DNA from: Falsiroseomonas algicola
GTDB taxonomy: Bacteria; Pseudomonadota; Alphaproteobacteria; Acetobacterales; Acetobacteraceae
Length of the DNA stretch: 64,000 bases
Assembly (NCBI RefSeq): GCF_011040385.1
Contig: NZ_JAAIKB010000011.1
Span: forward strand, 62,001 to 126,000
Reading direction: 5' to 3'
Shown here: in pieces, positions 23,936-40,815 of the stretch
Numbering within the stretch: the stretch's first letter is position 1
Layout of the letters: each line of letters begins with the position of its first letter
Made by a program: the position numbers and the translations under genes
Notes under the pieces: model-generated
Told to the model about the DNA's origin: nothing
The model's database searches: none
Seen by the model: the letters and a program-made list of their open reading frames with translations, nothing else

Positions 23936-25185
23936 CAGCCCCGCCGCACCACGTAGGACGCCGCCTGCAAGGCCGCGATGATGGCGTTGCCCTGCGCGCC
24001 GTCGCGCACCTCCACCATCAGGTAGAGCTCCGTGGACTGCACCGTCGGCGCACCGAAGAGCTGCTGGTGGTTCACCTCGATGACGTTGCCGCCAAGGGCG
24101 GAGATGCGCGCCGCGATGTCGGCCAGCATGCCGGGGCGGTCGGGGATGTCGAAATGCAGGCGCAGGATGCGGCCATCCCGCAGCAGCTGGCGCAGCAGCA
24201 CGTTGGACAGTGCCCGCGCATCGATGTTGCCGCCACAGACGGGGATGCCGACGGCCTTGCCCGCGAAGCGCTCGGGATAGGCCAGCACGGCCGCGAGCCC
24301 CGCGGCGCCGGCGCCTTCCGCCACCAGCTTGGCGCCCTCGGCCAGCATGGCGATCGCCTGTTCCACCGCGCGTTCCGGCACGACGAGGACCTCCGTGCCC
24401 AGGCGCTTCAGCATGGCGTAGGGAACCTCGCCGACGTCGCGTACCGCGATGCCCTCGGCGACGGTCGGACCGCCCACGGCCACGGGTTCACCGGCCAGGC
24501 GCTGCGCCATGGCAGGATATCCCTCGACCTCCACGCCGAAGACCTGGATGCCGGGGCGAAGTTCCAGCGCCGCCGTGGCACAGCCCGCCAGCAGCCCGCC
24601 GCCGCCCACCGGGATCGCCAGCGCGTCAAGCTGAGGAAAGTCCTCCAGCATCTCCAGCGCCGCGGTGCCCTGGCCGGCAATGACACCGGGATCGTCATAC
24701 GGGTGGACGAAGGTCAGGCCATCGCGCAGCGCCAGCTCATGCGCATGGGCCGCGGCCTCCGCCAGCGTCTCCCCATGCAGCACCACCTTGGCGCCCCAGC
24801 CTTCCGTCCGCGTCACCTTGGTGGCGGGGGTGAAGCGCGGCATGACGATGGTGGCGCTGATCCCGGCGAGCGAGGCGTGGCGCGCCACCGCCTGGGCATG
24901 GTTGCCGGCCGACATGGCGATGACGCCGGCCGCCTTCTCCCGCGCCGTCAGCAGCGCGATGCGGTTGGCGGCACCCCGTTCCTTGAAGGCGCCGGTGGCC
25001 TGCAGGTTGTCGAGCTTCAGATGGATGGTCGCACCCGTCGCGCGCGACAGCGCGTCGCAGCGGATGGTCGGCGTGCGGATGACGGCGCCCGCAATCCGCG
25101 CCGCCGCCGCGCGCACATCCGCCAGCGTGAGGGAGGCGGGAGCCGGATGCTCCATCACCGGAGCGATCGCGCGGACGGGCGACAT
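23935..25185 (-). CDS. ilvA: threonine ammonia-lyase with ACT domain
   Basis: 416-residue PLP enzyme that deaminates threonine (and serine) to 2-oxobutyrate. The Schiff-base Lys lies in ATGAFKERGA near residue 62. The glycine loop PVGGGGLLAG is the phosphate-binding site. A C-terminal ACT domain (about 330-416, starting LRLHFDIPDRPGML) suggests allosteric control. The short, single-ACT form may be biosynthetic or catabolic. Translationally coupled to the downstream GFA gene. Confidence 0.92.
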   Translation of the reverse strand: MSPVRAIAPVMEHPAPASLTLADVRAAAARIAGAVIRTPTIRCDALSRATGATIHLKLDNLQATGAFKERGAANRIALLTAREKAAGVIAMSAGNHAQAVARHASLAGISATIVMPRFTPATKVTRTEGWGAKVVLHGETLAEAAAHAHELALRDGLTFVHPYDDPGVIAGQGTAALEMLEDFPQLDALAIPVGGGGLLAGCATAALELRPGIQVFGVEVEGYPAMAQRLAGEPVAVGGPTVAEGIAVRDVGEVPYAMLKRLGTEVLVVPERAVEQAIAMLAEGAKLVAEGAGAAGLAAVLAYPERFAGKAVGIPVCGGNIDARALSNVLLRQLLRDGRILRLHFDIPDRPGMLADIAARISALGGNVIEVNHQQLFGAPTVQSTELYLMVEVRDGAQGNAIIAALQAASYVVRRG

Positions 25186-25288
25186 GGTCGTAACCTTATC
25201 CCAACGGCCTTGTCGCGTGACCGCTCAAGGCCCCTCAGAGTTCGTGCCGGCGGCGCGACTCACGCTCGGCCGCGCCCAGCCGGGCGCT

Positions 25289-25312
25289 CGGGCCGGTCAG
25301 CTGACCGGCCCG
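25289..25312 (-). terminator. 24-bp perfect palindrome at greA 3' end
   Basis: Arms CGGGCCGGTCAG and its exact complement abut without a spacer, six bases after the greA stop. It can form a hairpin with a tight central loop but has no T tract. The position suggests 3'-end formation; a protein-binding site is the alternative. Confidence 0.45.
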
Positions 25313-25318
25313 CCGGTA

Positions 25319-25792
25319 TCAGACGAAGCGCACGCCCGCGATCTCATAGACCCGGGCGCCGCCGGGCGCCGGGACTTCCACGCTGTCGCCGACCTTCTTG
25401 CCGATCAGCGCCTTGGCGAGCGGCGAGGAGATGGAGATGGAGCCCTTCTTCATGTCGGCCTCGTGCTGGCCGACAATGCGGTAGGTCTTCTCGTCCTCCG
25501 TCTCCTCATCCACCACGGTCACATGCGCGCCGAAGCGGACCTGGTTGCCGGAGAGCTTGGAGGTGTCGATGACCTCCGCGGAGGGGATGACGGATTCGAG
25601 CTCGGCGATGCGGCCTTCGATGAAGGACTGCTTCTCCCGCGCCGCGTGGTACTCCGCATTCTCGGACAGGTCGCCATGGGCCCGGGCCTCCGCGATGGCG
25701 CGGATGACGGCGGGGCGTTCCTCGGCCTTGAGCTGACGGAGTTCCTCCTCCAGCCGGGCGAGACCTTCGGCGGTCATGGGGAACTTCTGCAC
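25319..25792 (-). CDS. greA: transcription elongation factor GreA
   Basis: 157 residues, the standard length. GreA rescues backtracked RNA polymerase by stimulating transcript cleavage. The N-terminal coiled coil carries the acidic tip [15 protein letters not shown] near residue 42. The C-terminal FKBP-like domain ends [14 protein letters not shown]...[13 protein letters not shown] start at 25792 gives the family's usual QKFPMT N-terminus and has GGAGG 11 bases upstream. It follows carB by about 180 bases on the same strand. Confidence 0.96.
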
Positions 25793-25938
25793 GTCGCGTC
25801 TATCCTCCAGGCAACTGACAGCGGTGACAGACCAGCGGGCCCTGCCTGGCCCTGCACCGATCCGCCAGCGGTGCCAGGCCCGGCGGAGCGGGCTGGCAGC
25901 ATGCAAGCATGTTCTGGCCGGGGCTGGAACAGGCAAGC

Positions 25939-25958
25939 GGGGCGGAAGCTTCCGCCCC
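25939..25958 (-). terminator. 20-bp perfect palindrome after carB
   Basis: GGGGCGGAAG and its exact complement abut, 12 bases past the carB stop. As with greA, it is a spacerless GC palindrome without a T tract, a probable 3'-end hairpin. Confidence 0.45.
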
Positions 25959-25970
25959 CACCCCGCCCGC

Positions 25971-29216
<3,246 letters not shown>

Positions 29217-29217
29217 G

Positions 29218-29484
29218 TCAGGCTCCGGTCGATCTGGCTTGGCGCCGCGCGCTGTAGAGCAGCAGCGGCAGGATCAGGGCGTGCGGCACGGCCCAGAAGA
29301 AGAAGGCGATTTTCGCGAGTTCGCCGGCCATCAGCGTGGTGGCGCCATGCACGACCACGGACAGCACGAAGGCCATCACGGCGGACCGCACGGGCGGATA
29401 GAGGCGCCGGAGCGAGGAGGCGACGGTGAAGAGCACCAGGCCCGAATAGGCCAGCGCGAAAAGCCCGAGGGCGATGTCCATCAT
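29218..29484 (-). CDS. small membrane protein between lysE and carB
   Basis: 88 residues with three hydrophobic stretches: [19 protein letters not shown], an [17 protein letters not shown] stretch and [16 protein letters not shown]. The start at 29484 overlaps the lysE stop by four bases (ATGA), and its own stop is one base from the carB start. No family recognised. Conserved coupling on both sides argues for a real gene, and its position suggests a role linked to the exporters or to carbamoyl phosphate synthesis. Confidence 0.7.
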
Positions 29485-30113
29485 GCGCGACTCTCCGCGG
29501 CGAGCTTCACGGCCAGCAGCGCCAGCGCGCCGCCCAGTACCCAGCGCTGCACCGCCATCCAGAGCGGCTTGGTGGACAGGAACCGCGCCGTGCCTGCGGC
29601 ACCCCAGACCAGCACCGCGTCCCACAGCGTGCAGACCGCGATCTGCACGAAGCCGAGGATGGCCGCCTGCAGGAACAGGCTGCCGCGATCGGGGTCGAGG
29701 AAGGGCGGCAGCACCGCCATGTAGAACAGCGCCACCTTCGGGTTCAGCGCCGCCGTGGCGAAGCCCACGATGAAGAGCCGCGGCGCCGGCTCCCGCGGCA
29801 TGGCTCTAGGGGCGAAGATCGGCTGCCCGCCCGGCCGCACGCATTGCCAGGCGAGGAACAGCAGATAGGCCGCGCCACCCAGCCGCAGCACGTCCCAGGC
29901 ATAGGGAATGGCCAGCAGCGCCGCCGTGATGCCCGCCGCCGCGCAGACCATGATGGTCAAGGAGCCGAACTGGCACCCCGCCAGCGACACCATCCCCGCG
30001 CCCGTTCCCTGCGCCAGCGAACGCGAGACGAGGTAGAGCATGTTCGGCCCCGGCGTGACCGCCAGGCCGAGCGACAGCAGCGCGAAGACGAGCAGCGTGT
30101 CGGCGGAGGGCAT
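29481..30113 (-). CDS. LysE/RhtB-family amino-acid exporter (copy 2)
   Basis: 210 residues, six predicted TM helices. The N-terminal TPGPNMLYLVSRSLAQG is the RhtB-type signature, and GFATAALNPKVALFYMAVLPPF carries the conserved NPK-A-LFY block. The family exports basic amino acids, homoserine or threonine. It is the second of two tandem paralogues inside the carA-carB operon, one base after its twin. Arginine is the obvious product of this pathway, so arginine or lysine export is a reasonable but untested guess. Confidence 0.88.
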   Translation of the reverse strand: MPSADTLLVFALLSLGLAVTPGPNMLYLVSRSLAQGTGAGMVSLAGCQFGSLTIMVCAAAGITAALLAIPYAWDVLRLGGAAYLLFLAWQCVRPGGQPIFAPRAMPREPAPRLFIVGFATAALNPKVALFYMAVLPPFLDPDRGSLFLQAAILGFVQIAVCTLWDAVLVWGAAGTARFLSTKPLWMAVQRWVLGGALALLAVKLAAESRA

Positions 30114-30114
30114 G

Positions 30115-30744
30115 TCAGCGCCGTCCGTCGAAGGCCAGCCGCACCGCCAGCCCCGCCAGGACCGTCGCCATCAGCCAGCGCTGCACGCGCTGCCAGCTCG
30201 GCCGCGTGCCGAGGAACACGGCCACCGATCCCGCCGCCATCACGATCCCCGCATTCACCGCGACGCTGACCGCGATCTGCGTTGCGCCCAGCATCAAGGA
30301 TTGCAGGAAGACATGGCCCGCCGCCGGGTCGATGAATTGCGGCAGCAGGGACAGGTAGAGCACCGCGATCTTCGGATTCAGCAGATTGGTGAGAAAGCCC
30401 ATGGCGAAGAGCCGCGCGGGGCTGTCATGGGCCAGCGCGCGCGGCGCGAAGGGCGTGCCGGGCGCGCGCACGGCCTGCCAAGCCAGCCACAGCAGGTAAG
30501 CCGCGCCCGCGATGCGCAGCGCGTCATAGGCGAAGGGCACGGCCATCACGATGGCGGTGATGCCGAGCGCCGCGCAGAGCAGGTAGAAGACGAAGCCCAG
30601 CGCGACCCCGGCCAGGGAGACGAAGCCGGCCGCACGCCCCTGCAGGATGGTGCGGCTGACCAGGTAGATCATGTTCGGCCCGGGCGTCAGCACCATGCCG
30701 AGTGCGATCGCCGCGAAGGCCAGCAGGGCGCCGGGCTCCACCAT
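30115..30744 (-). CDS. LysE/RhtB-family amino-acid exporter (copy 1)
   Basis: 209 residues with the same architecture as its downstream twin: TPGPNMIYLVSRTILQG near residue 20, GFLTNLLNPKIAVLYLSLLPQF near 115, and six TM helices. The two copies are clearly paralogous but diverged, so the duplication is old. Its start lies two bases after the carA stop. A heteromeric exporter or two specificities are both possible. Confidence 0.88.
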   Translation of the reverse strand: MVEPGALLAFAAIALGMVLTPGPNMIYLVSRTILQGRAAGFVSLAGVALGFVFYLLCAALGITAIVMAVPFAYDALRIAGAAYLLWLAWQAVRAPGTPFAPRALAHDSPARLFAMGFLTNLLNPKIAVLYLSLLPQFIDPAAGHVFLQSLMLGATQIAVSVAVNAGIVMAAGSVAVFLGTRPSWQRVQRWLMATVLAGLAVRLAFDGRR

Positions 30745-30746
30745 GC

Positions 30747-32135
30747 TCAGCCCGCCTTGCGCGTCTCGATCATGCCCACGAAGCGCTTGAACAGATGGTG
30801 GCTGTCGGTCGGCCCCGGCGACGCCTCCGGGTGGTACTGCACGGAGAAGGCCGGGTACTTGCTGCTCGCGATGCCCTCATTGGTGCCGTCGAAGAGGCTG
30901 CGATGCGTCACCGTCACGCCCTCGGGCAGCGTCTTCTCATCCACCGCGAAGCCGTGGTTCTGGGAGGTGATCTCGACCTTGCCCGTCACCAGGTCCTTCA
31001 CCGGCTGGTTCGCGCCGCGATGGCCGCGGTCCAGCTTGAAGGTCTTCGCCCCCAGCGACAGCGCCAGCAGCTGGTGGCCGAGGCAGATCCCGAACACCGG
31101 CACGCCCTTCTCCAGCACGCCCTGGATCGCCGGCACGGCGTATGCGCCCGTCGCCGCGGGGTCGCCGGGGCCGTTCGAGAGAAAGACGCCATCCGGGCCG
31201 TGGCTCAGGATGTCCTCCGCCGTCGCCGTCGCGGGCACCACCGTGACCGCGCAGCCGGCGGCGGCCAGGCAGCGCAGGATGTTGCGCTTGGCGCCGTAAT
31301 CCACGGCCACGACCTTCACCTTGGGCGCCGTCTGAGTGGCATAGCCCTGGCCCCAGGCCCATTCGGACTCGTCCCAGCCATAGGTCTGGCGGGTGGAGAC
31401 CTGCTTCGCCAGGTCCATCCCCTCCAGCCCCGGCCATTCCTTCGCCTGCGCGATCAGCGCCGGGATGTCGAAGACGCCATCCGCCGGGTGGGCCAGCACG
31501 CCATTCGGCGCGCCGCCGTCGCGGATGCGGGCCGTCAGCGCCCGCGTGTCGATGCCCGCGATGCCCGGCACGCCATGCGACTTCAGCCAGTCATCGAGGT
31601 GCCGGGTCGCGCGGTAGTTGGAGGGATCGGTGACGTCCTGCTTGACGATCAGCCCCCGCGCGGCGGGTGTCACCGCCTCGATATCCTCGGGGTTGGCGCC
31701 GACATTGCCGATATGGGGGAAGGTGAAACAGATGGTCTGCCCGGCATAGGAGGGATCGGTCAGCACCTCCTGGTACCCGGTCATGGAGGTGTTGAAGCAG
31801 ATCTCGGCGACCGTCGTGTTGTGCGCGCCGAAGCCGCGGCCCCAGAAGACGGACCCATCGGCCAGCACCAGCGCCGCGGTGGCACCTTCGGGGGCGGTCG
31901 GGGTCGTCTCGGTCACCGGGGCGGTCTCCATGCGGGGCTTGCGGGGGGCGGTATCGGCGGGTTGAGGGAGGTCGGCCAGGGTCAGGCCCGTGACACCAAG
32001 GATGGCGGGCCAGTGCTTGGCCGGGATGGCGCGGGCCTGGCGCCACTTGCGCACGGCCTCCGTCCCGATGCCGAGGCGCTGGGCTGCCGCTTCCGCGCCG
32101 CCCAGCAGGGTGATGATGTCATCGACCGTGCGCAT
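30747..32135 (-). CDS. carA: carbamoyl-phosphate synthase small subunit with N-terminal HTH-like domain
   Basis: 462 residues, about 70-80 longer than usual. Residues 85-462 are a normal CarA: N-terminal domain, then class I glutamine amidotransferase with Cys351 (GICLGH), His435 and Glu437 (YHPE). Residues 1-55 form an extra domain (MRTVDDIITLLGGAEAAAQR..., EAVRKWRQARAIPAKHWPAIL) that reads as a Cro/YdaS-like helix-turn-helix. A Pro-rich linker follows. The internal Met69 has no ribosome site before it, so the long form is favoured. I recall NCBI naming a similar module carph-isopro. First gene of the carA-lysE-lysE-carB operon. Confidence 0.9.
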   Translation of the reverse strand: MRTVDDIITLLGGAEAAAQRLGIGTEAVRKWRQARAIPAKHWPAILGVTGLTLADLPQPADTAPRKPRMETAPVTETTPTAPEGATAALVLADGSVFWGRGFGAHNTTVAEICFNTSMTGYQEVLTDPSYAGQTICFTFPHIGNVGANPEDIEAVTPAARGLIVKQDVTDPSNYRATRHLDDWLKSHGVPGIAGIDTRALTARIRDGGAPNGVLAHPADGVFDIPALIAQAKEWPGLEGMDLAKQVSTRQTYGWDESEWAWGQGYATQTAPKVKVVAVDYGAKRNILRCLAAAGCAVTVVPATATAEDILSHGPDGVFLSNGPGDPAATGAYAVPAIQGVLEKGVPVFGICLGHQLLALSLGAKTFKLDRGHRGANQPVKDLVTGKVEITSQNHGFAVDEKTLPEGVTVTHRSLFDGTNEGIASSKYPAFSVQYHPEASPGPTDSHHLFKRFVGMIETRKAG

Positions 32136-32149
32136 GCCGGCTCATATGT

Positions 32150-32201
32150 GGGAAAAAACTTCCGGCCGCAACCAGAGTCGCGCTCCGGGAAGATTTTTCC
32201 C
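32150..32201. promoter_or_regulatory. paired GGGAA-N5-TTCC operator-like sites, carA/yqeY promoter
   Basis: Two palindromes lie in the 112-base divergent region. Site 1 is GGGAAAAAACTTCC (32150-32163), with arms GGGAA and TTCC. Site 2 is GGGAAGATTTTTCCC (32187-32201), a perfect 5-bp-arm palindrome. Centres are about 37 bases apart, and the two sites are also inverted repeats of each other over roughly 17 bases (32149-32166 and 32185-32202). The extra HTH-like domain of CarA is an attractive candidate ligand, but nothing here proves it. Confidence 0.55.
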
Positions 32202-32247
32202 ATTCCGCCGCCCGTGCTACAGCGCGCCCATCCCAGGAGGATTTCCC

Positions 32248-32712
32248 ATGGCCGACGATCTCCGCGCCCGTTTCACCGAGGCCCTCAAGGCCGCCATGAT
32301 CGCCAAGGATGCGCCGAAGACCTCCGCCATCCGCATGATCACGGCCAAGCTCAAGGATGTGGACATCGCCGCCCGCCCCTCGGGCGTGGACAAGGTGCCG
32401 GATGACCAGATCGTCGCCATGCTGCGCGGCATGGTGAAGTCCCGCGCCGAGAGCGCCGCCATGTATCGCCAGGGCGGCCGCCCGGAACTGGCGGAGAAGG
32501 AGGAGTTCGAGATCGCGACGATCGAGAGCTTCCTGCCCCAGCAGATGGACGGCGCCGCCATGGAGGCCGCCGTCGCCGAGGCGGTCGCGGAATCCGGCGC
32601 CACCTCCATCAAGGAGATGGGCAAGGTCATGGCCGTGCTGAAGGCCAAGCACGGCGCGGTGCTGGACATGGCCAAGGCCGGGCCGCTGGTGAAGGCGAAG
32701 CTCGGGGGCTAG
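32248..32712 (+). CDS. GatB/YqeY domain-containing protein
   Basis: 154-residue YqeY-type protein, homologous to the tail domain of the amidotransferase GatB that contacts tRNA. Landmarks are LRARFTEALKAAMIAKD, a TLRMI-like SAIRMITAKLKD, and the C-terminal SIKEMGKVMAVLKAKHG. AGGAGG seven bases before the ATG fixes the start. It is divergent from carA and upstream of dnaG-rpoD, the usual alphaproteobacterial order, although here an opposite-strand pentapeptide gene separates it from dnaG. Cellular role is poorly defined in the family. Confidence 0.9.
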   Translation: MADDLRARFTEALKAAMIAKDAPKTSAIRMITAKLKDVDIAARPSGVDKVPDDQIVAMLRGMVKSRAESAAMYRQGGRPELAEKEEFEIATIESFLPQQMDGAAMEAAVAEAVAESGATSIKEMGKVMAVLKAKHGAVLDMAKAGPLVKAKLGG

Positions 32713-34127
32713 GAGCCCTCGCGGCCGGGCAGGACCAGCCCCTCCGCGCCGACCAGCACCGCGCCGCGAAGGTCGGCGCGGCGGAGGTCGGCCATGGTCA
32801 TCGTCGCATCCGTCAGGTCGGCGCCGGCCAGCAGGGCCTCCCGCAGATCGGCCTGGGTCAGGTCGGCATCGGGCAGCCGGGCCTCGCTCAGATCCGCCCC
32901 CACCAGCTTCGCCCGCACCAGCCGCGCGCTGGTCAGGTTGGTGGGCCAGCTCTGGCCATGCTTCAGCGTCATCGGCCCGGCCTCCGCCCGAGTCAGCTCG
33001 GCCTCGTTCAATGAGGCGCGGACCAGGCTCGCCCCCCGGAGGTTCGCCCGCGCCATCTTCGCCCCGCGGAGGTCGGCGGTGGCGAGGTCCGCCATGGCCA
33101 GCACCGTGCCGGTCAGGTCGCAGCCGCGCATCACCGCATGCTTCAGCACCGCCGCCGCCAGGTTGACGCCGGACAGATCCACCCCCGCCAGGTCGCAGGC
33201 CGTGAAATCCGCCCGCTGGCCGTCCCGCCCATTGCTGCGGATCCAGGCCTGGTGCAGCGCGATGGCCTCGCTCACCGCATCCGCCAGGTTCTCCAGCCGC
33301 CGTGTCATCTCCGCCCCGTCCAGGATGGCGGAGCCCAGGTCCACCTCGTCCAGCAGGGCGCCCAGCAGATTGGCGCCGGCGAGGTTGGTGGACCGGAAGG
33401 TGGCGCGGCTCAGGATCGCCCCCTCCAGCACCGCGCCTTCCAGATTGGCCTCCGACAGGTCGGCCCCTTCCAGGTTGCAGCCGCTGAGATCGGCCTTGCT
33501 GAGGTCGGCGCGGACGAAGACGGCCTCCCGCAGGTTGGAATCGCGCAGGTCGGTCTGCACGATGAAGGCGTTGGAGAGCTTGGCCCGCGTCAGGTTGGCA
33601 TTGGCGGCGGAGGCTTCCGACAATTCGCCGCGGCCCTCCGCCGCGGTGGCCGGCACCAGCTCTCCCCCCTTGCTGCGCACCAGATGCCCGTCGCGCAGGT
33701 CAGCGCCCGTCAGGTTGGCGCGCATCAGCTTCGCGCCCAGCAGGGAGGCCCCGCGCAGATCCGCCTTCTGCAGCCGCGCCCGCGTCAGCTCCGCGCGGCG
33801 GAGATTGGCGCCGAACAGGCAGGCATCGCTGAGGTCGGCCTCCGACAGGTCGGCGCCTTCCAGCCGCGCGCCGGTCAGGTCCGCGCCGGCCAGCAGCGCG
33901 CCGCGCAGCTCGACATGGGCGAGATCGGCGAATTTGAAGCTGGCCCGCTTGCCGCCGCGCTCGCCCCGTATGTGGCGGGCATGCAGGGCCAACGCCTCCG
34001 CCAGCGCGGCGGGCGGCACGGGGTGGTAGTCGATGGCCAGCGCATCCCGCCAACTGGCGGCACGGGCAGGGGCGGGGACTCGGCGCTGCACCCGCCATGC
34101 TTGGGCCGGAAGGCCTGAAGAATTCAT
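32709..34127 (-). CDS. pentapeptide-repeat protein
   Basis: 472 residues dominated by A(D/N)LxX pentapeptides, in two long blocks (about 60-255 and 300-460) that should fold as right-handed quadrilateral beta-helices. Each block is introduced by an L-x-x-H-x-x-W/H-I motif with G..G.RA(S/D)F, the capping motif often seen in this family. No signal peptide or enzyme domain. It overlaps the convergent yqeY by four bases and is divergent from dnaG. Some relatives mimic DNA and protect gyrase, but most have unknown function. Confidence 0.88.
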   Translation of the reverse strand: MNSSGLPAQAWRVQRRVPAPARAASWRDALAIDYHPVPPAALAEALALHARHIRGERGGKRASFKFADLAHVELRGALLAGADLTGARLEGADLSEADLSDACLFGANLRRAELTRARLQKADLRGASLLGAKLMRANLTGADLRDGHLVRSKGGELVPATAAEGRGELSEASAANANLTRAKLSNAFIVQTDLRDSNLREAVFVRADLSKADLSGCNLEGADLSEANLEGAVLEGAILSRATFRSTNLAGANLLGALLDEVDLGSAILDGAEMTRRLENLADAVSEAIALHQAWIRSNGRDGQRADFTACDLAGVDLSGVNLAAAVLKHAVMRGCDLTGTVLAMADLATADLRGAKMARANLRGASLVRASLNEAELTRAEAGPMTLKHGQSWPTNLTSARLVRAKLVGADLSEARLPDADLTQADLREALLAGADLTDATMTMADLRRADLRGAVLVGAEGLVLPGREGS

Positions 34128-34174
34128 GACCCCGGGCCTTGGCGTGCGCGCGGGCGTGCTAAAGCACGGGCAGG

Positions 34175-36040
34175 ATGGCCCTTCCCCCGCAATTCCTGGA
34201 CGAGTTGCGCGCCCGCACGCCGCTCGCGCCCCTCATCCAGCGCAAGACCCGGCTGACCAAGTCAGGCCGGAACTGGAAGGGCTGCTGCCCCTTCCATGGG
34301 GAGAAGACTCCCTCCTTCTATGTCTATGACGACCACTTCCACTGCTTCGGCTGCGGCGCGCATGGGGATGCCATCACCTTCGTCATGAAGGCGGAGGGCC
34401 AGGGCTTCCCGGAAGCGGTGGAGCGCCTGGCGCAGGAAGCGGGGCTCGAGGTTCCGAAGCCCACGCCGGAAGCCGCGGCGCGGGAACGCGCGGCGCGGGA
34501 CCTCTATGGCGTGCTCGAAGCCGCGGCCCAGGCCTTCCAGCGCCGGCTCCGCCTGCCGGAAGGCGCGGAGGGGCTGGCCTATCTCCGCCGCCGGGGCCTG
34601 AGCGAGGAGACGATCGCGCGCTTCGGCCTCGGCTGGTCCGGCGGCGGCCGCGGCGCCATCGCCGCCGACCTGAAGACCGATGGCATCACCCCCGAACAAC
34701 TGGCGGAAGCCGGGCTGATCCGGGAACGCGAAAGCGGCGAGGGTTATTCGGACCTTTACTTCAACCGTGTGATCTTCCCCATCCGGGACCGGCGCGGCCG
34801 CGTCGTCTCATTCGGCGGGCGCATCCTGGGGGATGGCCAGCCGAAATACGTGAACGGGCCGGAAACCGCCGTCTTCTCGAAGCGCCGCAACCTCTACGGC
34901 GTGGACATGGCGCGGGAAGCCGCCTTCCGGGGCGCGGCGGTGGTGGCGGTGGAGGGCTACATGGATGTCATCGCGCTCCACCAGGCCGGCTTCGGCGGCG
35001 CCGTGGCCCCGCTCGGCACCGCGCTCACGCCCGAACAGATGGAGGAGCTGTGGCGCCTGAGCCCCGAACCCGTGCTCTGCTTCGATGGCGATGGCGCGGG
35101 CGCGCGGGCGGCGGCGCGGGCGGCGGAGGCGGCGCTGCCGCTGCTGACCACCGAACGCAGCCTGCGCATGGCCACGCTGCCGGCGGGGGAGGACCCGGAT
35201 ACGCTCGTCTCCCGTCGCGGCACCGCCGGCTTCCAGGCCGTGCTGGATGGCGCGCGGCCGCTGTCGGAGGCGCTCTACGGCCTGCTGACGGAAGGCCGCC
35301 CCGCCGCGACGCCGGAACAGAAGGCCAGCCTGCGCAACCGGCTGGTGGAGGCGACCGGCCTGATCGCCGACAAGTCGCTGGCCGCCGAATACCGTCGCGC
35401 CCTGCTCGACCGGTTCTTCGAGAGCACCCGCCCGCAGAAACCCGCCTTCGGCGGCGCGCCCGGGCGGCCCGGGGCGCGCAAGGTCGTTGTCCCACGCCAG
35501 CGCCCCGCCATCACGCCGGGCCGTGTGCGCGTGGCCCAGGCCCGCGCCCTGATGGCGATCACGCTCCGCCATCCCTGGTTGCTGCCGGAGGTGGAGGAGG
35601 TCTTCGCCGGGCTCGACCTGGGCGACCCGCAGCTGGCGGATTGCCGCGCCTCAGCCCTCCGCTGGCTGGCGGATGGCCATGAACTTGACTCCTCCGGCCT
35701 GATGGACCAACTCGCCCGGGACGGGTGGGGGGAACTGGTATCAGCCTTGCTGCGGGATCCGGGCCTGCCGGCGGAAGCCAGCGCCGAGGCCCAGCCGAAG
35801 GACGCGCTGGATGGCTGGTGGCACTTCTTCGGATTGCTGCGGGGCGAGGCGGAGCTGGAGGAAGACCGGATGGCGGCGAAGCGCGACTGGGACGCGGCGC
35901 GCGATCCGGCAGCGCAGACCCGGGCGCAACAGCGCCTGATCCGCCTGACCTTGACCCTGGCCGCGCTGCGCCGCGGCGAGTGGACGGAAACGGATGGGGC
36001 CGGGGCCGCGGGCGACGCGGCCATCGGCAGTGGGCATTGA
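34175..36040 (+). CDS. dnaG: DNA primase
   Basis: 621-residue primase that lays down RNA primers for DNA replication. The N-terminal zinc-binding domain has ligands Cys38, His41, Cys57 and Cys60. The RNA-polymerase core contains GGRILGDGQPKYVNGPET, and the TOPRIM part has VEGYMDVIAL near residue 260 and FDGDGAG near 305. A C-terminal DnaB-interaction region of about 170 residues follows. It starts close to the divergent pentapeptide gene and precedes rpoD by 83 bases, as in the classical macromolecular synthesis operon. Confidence 0.96.
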   Translation: MALPPQFLDELRARTPLAPLIQRKTRLTKSGRNWKGCCPFHGEKTPSFYVYDDHFHCFGCGAHGDAITFVMKAEGQGFPEAVERLAQEAGLEVPKPTPEAAARERAARDLYGVLEAAAQAFQRRLRLPEGAEGLAYLRRRGLSEETIARFGLGWSGGGRGAIAADLKTDGITPEQLAEAGLIRERESGEGYSDLYFNRVIFPIRDRRGRVVSFGGRILGDGQPKYVNGPETAVFSKRRNLYGVDMAREAAFRGAAVVAVEGYMDVIALHQAGFGGAVAPLGTALTPEQMEELWRLSPEPVLCFDGDGAGARAAARAAEAALPLLTTERSLRMATLPAGEDPDTLVSRRGTAGFQAVLDGARPLSEALYGLLTEGRPAATPEQKASLRNRLVEATGLIADKSLAAEYRRALLDRFFESTRPQKPAFGGAPGRPGARKVVVPRQRPAITPGRVRVAQARALMAITLRHPWLLPEVEEVFAGLDLGDPQLADCRASALRWLADGHELDSSGLMDQLARDGWGELVSALLRDPGLPAEASAEAQPKDALDGWWHFFGLLRGEAELEEDRMAAKRDWDAARDPAAQTRAQQRLIRLTLTLAALRRGEWTETDGAGAAGDAAIGSGH

Positions 36041-36123
36041 AGTGAAGGTCTTAACGCGCTTCCGCGTGCCACGGGCAAAACCCCGCGGCCCGTCGTCGCG
36101 CCGTTGACGGAGCGGATACAGGC

Positions 36124-38046
<1,923 letters not shown>

Positions 38047-38047
38047 G

Positions 38048-38626
38048 GTGGCGACCATCGCCGTGGCCCGGGAGCCGGTGCAGCGGATCGCGGTGGATGT
38101 CACTTTCCTGCGCATGGACGCGCCGCCCGATGACGCGCCCGCGGCGCTGCCGCGCGGCAGCGTCGTGCAGCGCGTGGCGCAATGCTCCGTGCCCTTCTAC
38201 CGCTACCTCTACGACACGGTCGGGCGCGACTATGTCTGGTGGCTGCGCCGCACGGTGCCGGACAGCGAGATCGCGGCCCTGCTGGCGCGGCCGGAGATCA
38301 CCATCCACGTCCTCTACCACGGGGGCGAACCGGCGGGCTTCTACGAGCTGGAGCGCCGCGGCGACCACGGCACCAACCTGGCCTATTTCGGCCTGATGCC
38401 GCACGCTATCGGCTTCGGCGCCGGCCGCGCCCTGCTCCGCCACGCCGTGGACGAGGCCTGGGGCGAACACCCGCGGGGGCTGACGGTGAATACCTGCACC
38501 GCCGACCATCCACGAGCGCTGCCCAACTACAAGGCCGCCGGCTTCCGCGTGATGCGCACGGTGCGGGAGGTATGGCCCGTGCCGCTGCGCCTGGGGCTTG
38601 CGATCCCGGAGCGGCTGAAGGTCTGA
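38048..38626 (+). CDS. GNAT-family N-acetyltransferase
   Basis: 192 residues with a GNAT core: GFYELERRG strand, then [19 protein letters not shown] (the acetyl-CoA-binding motif A with a Q/R-x-x-G-x-G/A variant), then [25 protein letters not shown]. The start is GTG, one base after the rpoD stop, so it is probably co-translated with rpoD, which is unusual company. Substrate unknown. The bidirectional terminator follows directly. Confidence 0.82.
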
Positions 38627-38638
38627 CCGGGGCATGAA

Positions 38639-38668
38639 AAAGGCCGGCGGATCGCTCCGCCGGCCTTT
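38639..38668. terminator. bidirectional intrinsic terminator
   Basis: Perfect 13-bp stem AAAGGCCGGCGGA / TCCGCCGGCCTTT with a TCGC loop. The A and T runs at either end make it work for the GNAT gene (+) and for hppA (-), which converge here. Confidence 0.85.
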
Positions 38669-38682
38669 CTCGTTGTGGCGCC

Positions 38683-40815
<2,133 letters not shown>

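Follow-up and report, generated by a model that had tools for sequence, protein, structure and literature searches.

A Cro-type domain fused to CarA and paired palindromes at the carA promoter suggest an enzyme with a built-in repressor in Acetobacteraceae

The carA gene of Falsiroseomonas algicola encodes CarA with an N-terminal helix-turn-helix (HTH) extension, and two palindromes lie just upstream of the same gene. Judged from the sequence, CarA is very probably an enzyme with a built-in repressor acting on its own operon; DNA binding, dimerisation, repression and the operon itself are all predicted in this reading. We propose that the N-terminal Cro-type domain, held on a flexible linker, binds GGGAA-N5-TTCCC with one subunit per half-site. 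The carA promoter would offer two such sites, spaced by about 38 bp; the proximal site lies between the putative −35 and −10 elements, and its occupancy would block RNA polymerase. Abundant CarA protein would in this way turn down an operon made up of carA, both LysE-type genes and carB. An effect on the ratio of CarA to CarB is conceivable. The simplest reading is negative autoregulation, because the sites are at repressor positions and the protein made from the gene bears a Cro-type domain.

The carA gene with its extension (30747..32135, minus strand) is an open reading frame of 462 amino acids plus a stop codon. Positions are those of the window, the whole 64,000-nucleotide stretch of DNA that was analysed. 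In a profile search, TIGR01368 (CarA) matched residues 87–457 at 457.8 bits (curated cut-off 307.35) over profile positions 1–360 of 361, a full-length match. The first LysE-type gene (30115..30744, minus strand; PF01810) is directly downstream with a gap of 2 bp and is probably in the same operon. It is followed by a second LysE-type gene (29481..30113, minus strand; PF01810) and by carB (25971..29216, minus strand), which encodes the large subunit of the same enzyme and matches PF02786 and other CPSase large-chain domains. A short open reading frame (29218–29625) overlaps the second LysE-type gene and has its end just before carB. The spacing suggests that carA, the two LysE-type genes and carB form one operon. 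The YqeY gene (32248..32712, plus strand; PF09424) is divergent from carA, and the intergenic stretch between them holds both palindromes.

Residues 4–56 of CarA (31968..32126, minus strand) belong to NCBIfam NF046037.1 (carph-isopro), with a score of 62.7 bits against a cut-off of 38. An earlier sequence-only reading had described an HTH-like domain fused to CarA and had mentioned a family named carph-isopro; the fusion is real, and the family exists and catalogues the domain, with neither a function nor a DNA site in its listing. The same reading had taken the first 50 or so residues for a Cro-type HTH. The structural model agrees with this: the domain (pLDDT 89.8) is predicted to have an HTH fold like that of phage Cro, and Foldseek places it closest to phage Cro proteins (TM 0.72, probability 1.00, best E-value 6.6e-3). 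The nearest solved structures are also phage Cro proteins, Xfaso 1 Cro (3bd1), N15 Cro (6on0 and 2hin) and P22 Cro (1rzs), and include N15 Cro on operator DNA. Profile E-values against solved chains were 1.2e-4 to 1e-3 for the best three. Small palindromic operators are typical of Cro. The predicted recognition helix spans residues 25–34 (32034..32063, minus strand; helix H25–34 in the model) and includes R29, K30, R32 and Q33. Unlike the phage proteins, which are its closest relatives in both fold and sequence, the CarA HTH is fused to an enzyme, and its sites are at a chromosomal metabolic operon.

With the domain alone, PF15943 (YdaS_toxin) scored 29.5 bits against a cut-off of 30 and PF14549 (P22_Cro) 27.0 against 30.2. 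Both scores are just below the curated cut-offs, and the domain was not filed under either family. A phage or plasmid source was also set aside: the phage search gave one weak match (34.8% identity, E-value 4e-3), and the ten plasmid matches listed, out of 127 records, all start at residue 89 or 93 and so lack the HTH.

A Pro/Ala-rich linker (residues 57–86; 31878..31967, minus strand) joins the HTH to a complete CarA, as had been read from the sequence. It appears disordered, with residues 58–77 below a pLDDT of 50. The full-length model averages a pLDDT of 77.6; values fall below 50 in the linker and at some places in the CarA body. Linker length in 155 CarA fusions has a median of 24 residues and a range of 14–71. 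The codon of Met69 (31929..31931, minus strand) lies in this linker and is a possible internal start. In relatives, ATG makes up 114 of 3945 linker codons but 500 of 56727 codons of the CarA body, an enrichment in the linker. Of the 114 linker ATG codons, 75 have a Shine-Dalgarno-like motif 4–14 nt upstream, as do 282 of the 3831 other linker codons. Both comparisons are uncorrected for ancestry. Many species probably also make an HTH-free CarA from an additional in-frame start that has its own ribosome-binding site.

These linker counts could also be taken to mean that the extension is untranslated and that CarA starts at Met69 or its equivalent, an outcome that would have undone the sequence-only reading. 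However, Met69 in the window has no Shine-Dalgarno-like motif upstream, and the main ATG lies 7 nt after the putative −10 element, as for a leaderless start. The extension is fused in frame to CarA in 139 of 150 family genomes. Among nearest neighbours, the differences in the domain at codon positions 1, 2 and 3 number 795, 419 and 2033, and this third-position excess indicates that the domain is translated. It evolves as coding sequence, which argues against Met69 as the sole start; we consider a start there alone highly improbable.

Both palindromes are where the sequence-only reading had placed them. The predicted distal operator (32187..32201, minus strand), which reads GGGAAAAATCTTCCC on the carA strand, is a perfect GGGAA-N5-TTCCC. 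The predicted proximal operator (32150..32164, minus strand), CGGAAGTTTTTTCCC on the carA strand, has one mismatch, at its last base, and its position is conserved in relatives. The perfect motif has one match in the 64-kb window, where 0.01 is expected. In the window's genome it occurs at 14 places, the carA copy included. The carA copy is the only one with an A/T centre; the other 13 have a G+C-rich centre, are mostly in a similar G-run/C-run hairpin context, and were read as a dispersed repeat. Because the repeat accounts for 13 of the 14 exact matches in the genome, the carA palindromes might be thought a product of chance or part of this G+C-centred repeat. Their conservation at carA across the family, their A/T centres and the counts given below contradict this, and we attach next to no credence to it. 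The repeat itself is a G+C-rich hairpin of the type GGGGGAACNNNGTTCCCCC at 13 places (L271–L283), some of them next to a common stretch that resembles CCCCTGGCATGGGGG. An RNA hairpin or attenuator was set aside as an account of the carA palindromes: the distal site is upstream of the putative promoter, and Rfam gave no match at gathering score within 24000–40000.

The promoter of the window would read, in order, TTGCGG, 17 bp, CATATG, 7 nt and ATG. We infer the −35 element to be TTGCGG (32166..32171, minus strand) and the −10 element to be CATATG (32143..32148, minus strand). The distance from the start of the proximal site to the domain is 33–43 bp in 98 of 154 loci, which we call the short-leader group. 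When the 98 loci are aligned on the proximal site, TTG stands at −7 to −5 in 85 of them and A at +17, the second position of the −10 element, in 89, with both in 79. As the TTG and the A are conserved around the site, the 17-bp block T-GGGAA-N5-TTCCC-A would fill the spacer between the −35 and −10 elements. Of the 98 short-leader loci, 3 have a Shine-Dalgarno-like motif before the main start (7 of 98 with another placement), compared to 30 of 56 longer-leader loci, and the carA mRNA of the short-leader group is predicted to be leaderless. The pair lies 72–100 bp upstream in 43 other loci, in which TTG is not seen at the corresponding place. The main text of a start-site map of Gluconobacter (PMC5756330) contains the word 'carbamoyl' 0 times.

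The occurrence of the domain and the palindrome was compared across relatives. The family set comprised 150 genomes, 142 of which have the domain over the cut-off. The eight others include four with no CarA match, three whose partial CarA matches we attribute to contig ends, and one (G029) with a full CarA that lacks the domain. Its sister G116 also has a CarA without the domain and is counted in the 142 through an unrelated 82-residue open reading frame. In these two genomes, which form one genus with an intact, domain-less CarA, no site at two mismatches or fewer was found in the 420 bp examined. At the level of loci, 269 were collected, of which 200 have a domain reading frame. This frame runs on into CarA in 158 (139 from family genomes and 19 from named records), and removal of three duplicates (L137, L140 and L219) left the 155 distinct CarA fusions. 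Two loci outside the 155, L156, whose frame is broken in the linker, and L161, truncated at a contig end, both have the palindromes. In L156 (G088:C1), the HTH and the CarA body are in different frames and the operator pair is intact.

Within 200 bp upstream of the 155 fusions, an exact site was found in 131, a site with at most one mismatch in 146, and two such sites in 118. Twenty rounds of shuffling gave means of 0.15 for an exact site and 2.35 for a site at one mismatch or fewer. The 61 CarA loci without a detected domain have no exact site and a single one-mismatch site; L067 and L106 are among these controls by lack of a profile match, though their tblastn alignments began at residues 25 and 17. 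The expectation in the sequence-only reading that the palindrome goes with the HTH extension is thus borne out (146 of 155 fusions, compared with 1 of 61 domain-less loci). A pair of sites (two mismatches or fewer each, spacing 30–60 bp) is present in 135 of the 155 fusions, at 37–41 bp in 110 of the 135. Across whole genomes, the exact pair occurs in 52 of the 150 family genomes, once in each, and a reversed-pattern control gave 0. The domain match lies within 250 bp downstream of 51 of these 52 pairs. The exception, in the window's own genome, is the G+C-centred repeat; the carA pair of that genome was missed by the exact search because its proximal site has a mismatch.

Nine of the 155 fusions have no site at one mismatch or fewer. 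Six of the nine have the symmetric CGGAA-N5-TTCCG, and one, L026, has no site even at two mismatches or fewer. Of 53 positions compared, residue 33 in the predicted recognition helix shows the strongest association with the outer base pair of the operator (Fisher 3.8e-6, uncorrected). The association, which is not independent of ancestry, is suggestive. On the tree there are about six changes of each trait and seven rows with both, which makes few independent pairs, and some rows break the link, e.g. L061 (Q33) and L038 (H33). The covariation was not accepted as proof, as the independent changes on the tree are too few.

The binding of the palindromes by the extension is deduced from sequence, and the divergent YqeY gene, present in 138 of 154 fusion loci, could be the target of another regulator. 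The palindromes would then bind that separate regulator, and the HTH extension would have another role or be a relic. However, the sites go with the domain, and the genus that lacks the domain lacks the sites too. Among 49 loci with at least 1000 bp of upstream sequence, seven have no YqeY match, and these still carry a site at one mismatch or fewer (six) or CGGAA-N5-TTCCG (the seventh). Other enzymes that bear such a domain also come with palindromes of their own, which differ in sequence and are arranged similarly. We therefore regard a separate regulator as improbable. The YqeY gene might still share the sites with a self-repressing CarA.

Different palindromes in a similar layout on different enzymes are a main argument that the domain reads the palindrome. 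A class-level search of 385 genomes of Alphaproteobacteria found the domain at an E-value of 1e-6 in 84 genomes and over the cut-off in 73. It fronts ArgB, PyrB, NAD(P)H-hydrate epimerase/dehydratase, crotonyl-CoA carboxylase/reductase and pyruvate dehydrogenase E1 alpha, each enzyme part being over its curated cut-off. It also fronts HisZ-like proteins (one of two over the enzyme cut-off) and a TorD-like protein (below the cut-off). The domain passes the NF046037 cut-off in four of these eight proteins and misses it in the other four.

HisZ-like, ArgB and PyrB genes of other Alphaproteobacteria (L309–L323 and L325–L335) have an HTH of this kind together with their own palindromes; these motifs were picked after the sequences had been viewed, so the shuffle counts overstate the surprise. 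In f49, the HisZ-like protein was matched in 16 of 18 genomes, with the N-terminus present in 15. All 15 genes have two TTCATA-N3-TATGAA sites (one mismatch or fewer) exactly 39 bp apart, and 1 of 3000 shuffles had two sites. In six f49 genomes, 11 of the 13 exact TTCATA-N3-TATGAA sites are at the HisZ-like gene. Three of four ArgB genes in f59 have a TTACT-N5-AGTAA pair at 34 bp with one mismatch or fewer per site, and the elements of the fourth are of another, less regular kind. The three domain-bearing PyrB genes in f113 all have a clear palindrome, two being exact TTTTGCG-N5-CGCAAAA and that of G261 being AAATTGCGATTAACGCAATTT. Six f113 PyrB orthologues without a profile-detected domain have no such palindrome at four mismatches or fewer. 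The four HisZ-like genes in f121 show partial elements and no convincing pair: one has an exact palindrome, two have weak pairs and one has none.

The pyruvate kinase of the window's genome (L003, G000:C22:13343-16429) has an N-terminal HTH-like stretch, and its kinase models are over their cut-offs. The stretch scored 18.3 bits (E-value 0.0195) in the family search and 29.0 bits (E-value 5.4e-7) with our own profile, and it was not among the matches of an NCBIfam scan at an E-value of 0.001. Two CTTA-N7-TAAG sites lie 79 and 38 bp before the domain, 41 bp apart. No such pair was found in shuffles of L003 or in the 64-kb window, where any identical-arm 4-7-4 pair at 34–44 bp occurs at about 0.007 per 150 bp.

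The domain was also found on NAD(P)H-hydrate epimerase/dehydratase (L265, with TTGTACGTATTTTACGTACAA upstream), crotonyl-CoA reductase (L269), pyruvate dehydrogenase E1 alpha (L289) and a TorD-like protein (L300). Upstream of the last three, no pair could be called. Membrane, coiled-coil-like proteins with the domain (most of L241–L268) showed no single shared operator and mostly no callable pair. Five proteins of this membrane, coiled-coil-like kind (L266, L267, L287, L295 and L301) have several GTACG-type elements upstream. Palindromes lie upstream of the short domain proteins L240, L237, L236 and L002, and those of L240 are GTGGG-N-CCCAC elements about 38 bp apart. One genome has a second copy of the domain (L176, G038:C18), ahead of a region that weakly resembles a TetR-type regulator (34.9 bits, below the cut-off), with TTTACATGTAAA upstream.

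A broader generalisation, to which we give an even chance, is that this is a reusable Cro-type plug-in in Alphaproteobacteria. A domain with its own operator pair would make an enzyme a self-limiting gene switch, with CarA, HisZ-like, ArgB, PyrB and pyruvate kinase as the cases so far. Many carA genes would then give two proteins, a repressor-headed one from the leaderless start and a plain one from an internal ribosome-binding site.

The fusion might in addition be an end-product sensor, in which UMP, ornithine or arginine alters binding through the oligomeric state of the enzyme. This would add to self-repression by CarA and not replace it. The sequence-only reading had likewise suggested that the enzyme may sense flux or a ligand, and none of the present results speaks for this directly. 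A tetramer would bear four HTH heads for four half-sites. The HisZ-like, ArgB and PyrB carriers belong to feedback-controlled pathways, which we counted in favour of sensing. Passages of PMC6245113 describe the CPSase of E. coli as shifting between heterodimer and tetramer with effectors, UMP giving the heterodimer and ornithine the tetramer. Taken at face value, this has the wrong sign for end-product repression. For this reason the ligand logic from the E. coli oligomer states was rejected and we do not claim sensing by the CarA fusion, which we hold to be possible yet rather unlikely.

Enzymes that also regulate transcription are already known as trigger enzymes, with PutA, BirA, NadR, PepA and PyrH of E. 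coli as examples. Passages of PMC8249747 use this term and describe PutA as binding between its own gene and a divergent gene. CarA resembles them in combining a complete enzyme with a DNA-binding domain in one protein, and would be like them in regulating transcription. It is unlike them in that one type of phage-like domain stands before several unrelated enzymes with different palindromes. According to passages of PMC6245113, the regulators of carAB in E. coli include two other enzymes, PepA and PyrH. Neither the name carph-isopro nor a description of this fusion, of its operators or of the recurrent Cro-type form was found in our searches of open-licence PMC papers. The operator pairing, which the sequence-only reading had believed undescribed, was likewise not found there. 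To the catalogued domain, the present analysis adds this pairing, the position in the promoter and the joint absence of domain and site.

Repression of its own operon by CarA, as the sequence-only reading had proposed, is a prediction well supported by the co-occurrence of domain and site, by their joint absence in one genus and by a proximal site that appears to lie inside the promoter. Natural operator variants (the GGGAA and CGGAA classes) exist and are suited to a specificity test. That the domain also occurs on other enzymes points to a general way in which repressor domains of phage type may turn into autoregulators of metabolism. If this reading of CarA is true, a whole bacterial family, including the industrial acetic acid bacteria, would gate arginine and pyrimidine synthesis, unlike E. 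coli, by an enzyme that represses its own promoter.
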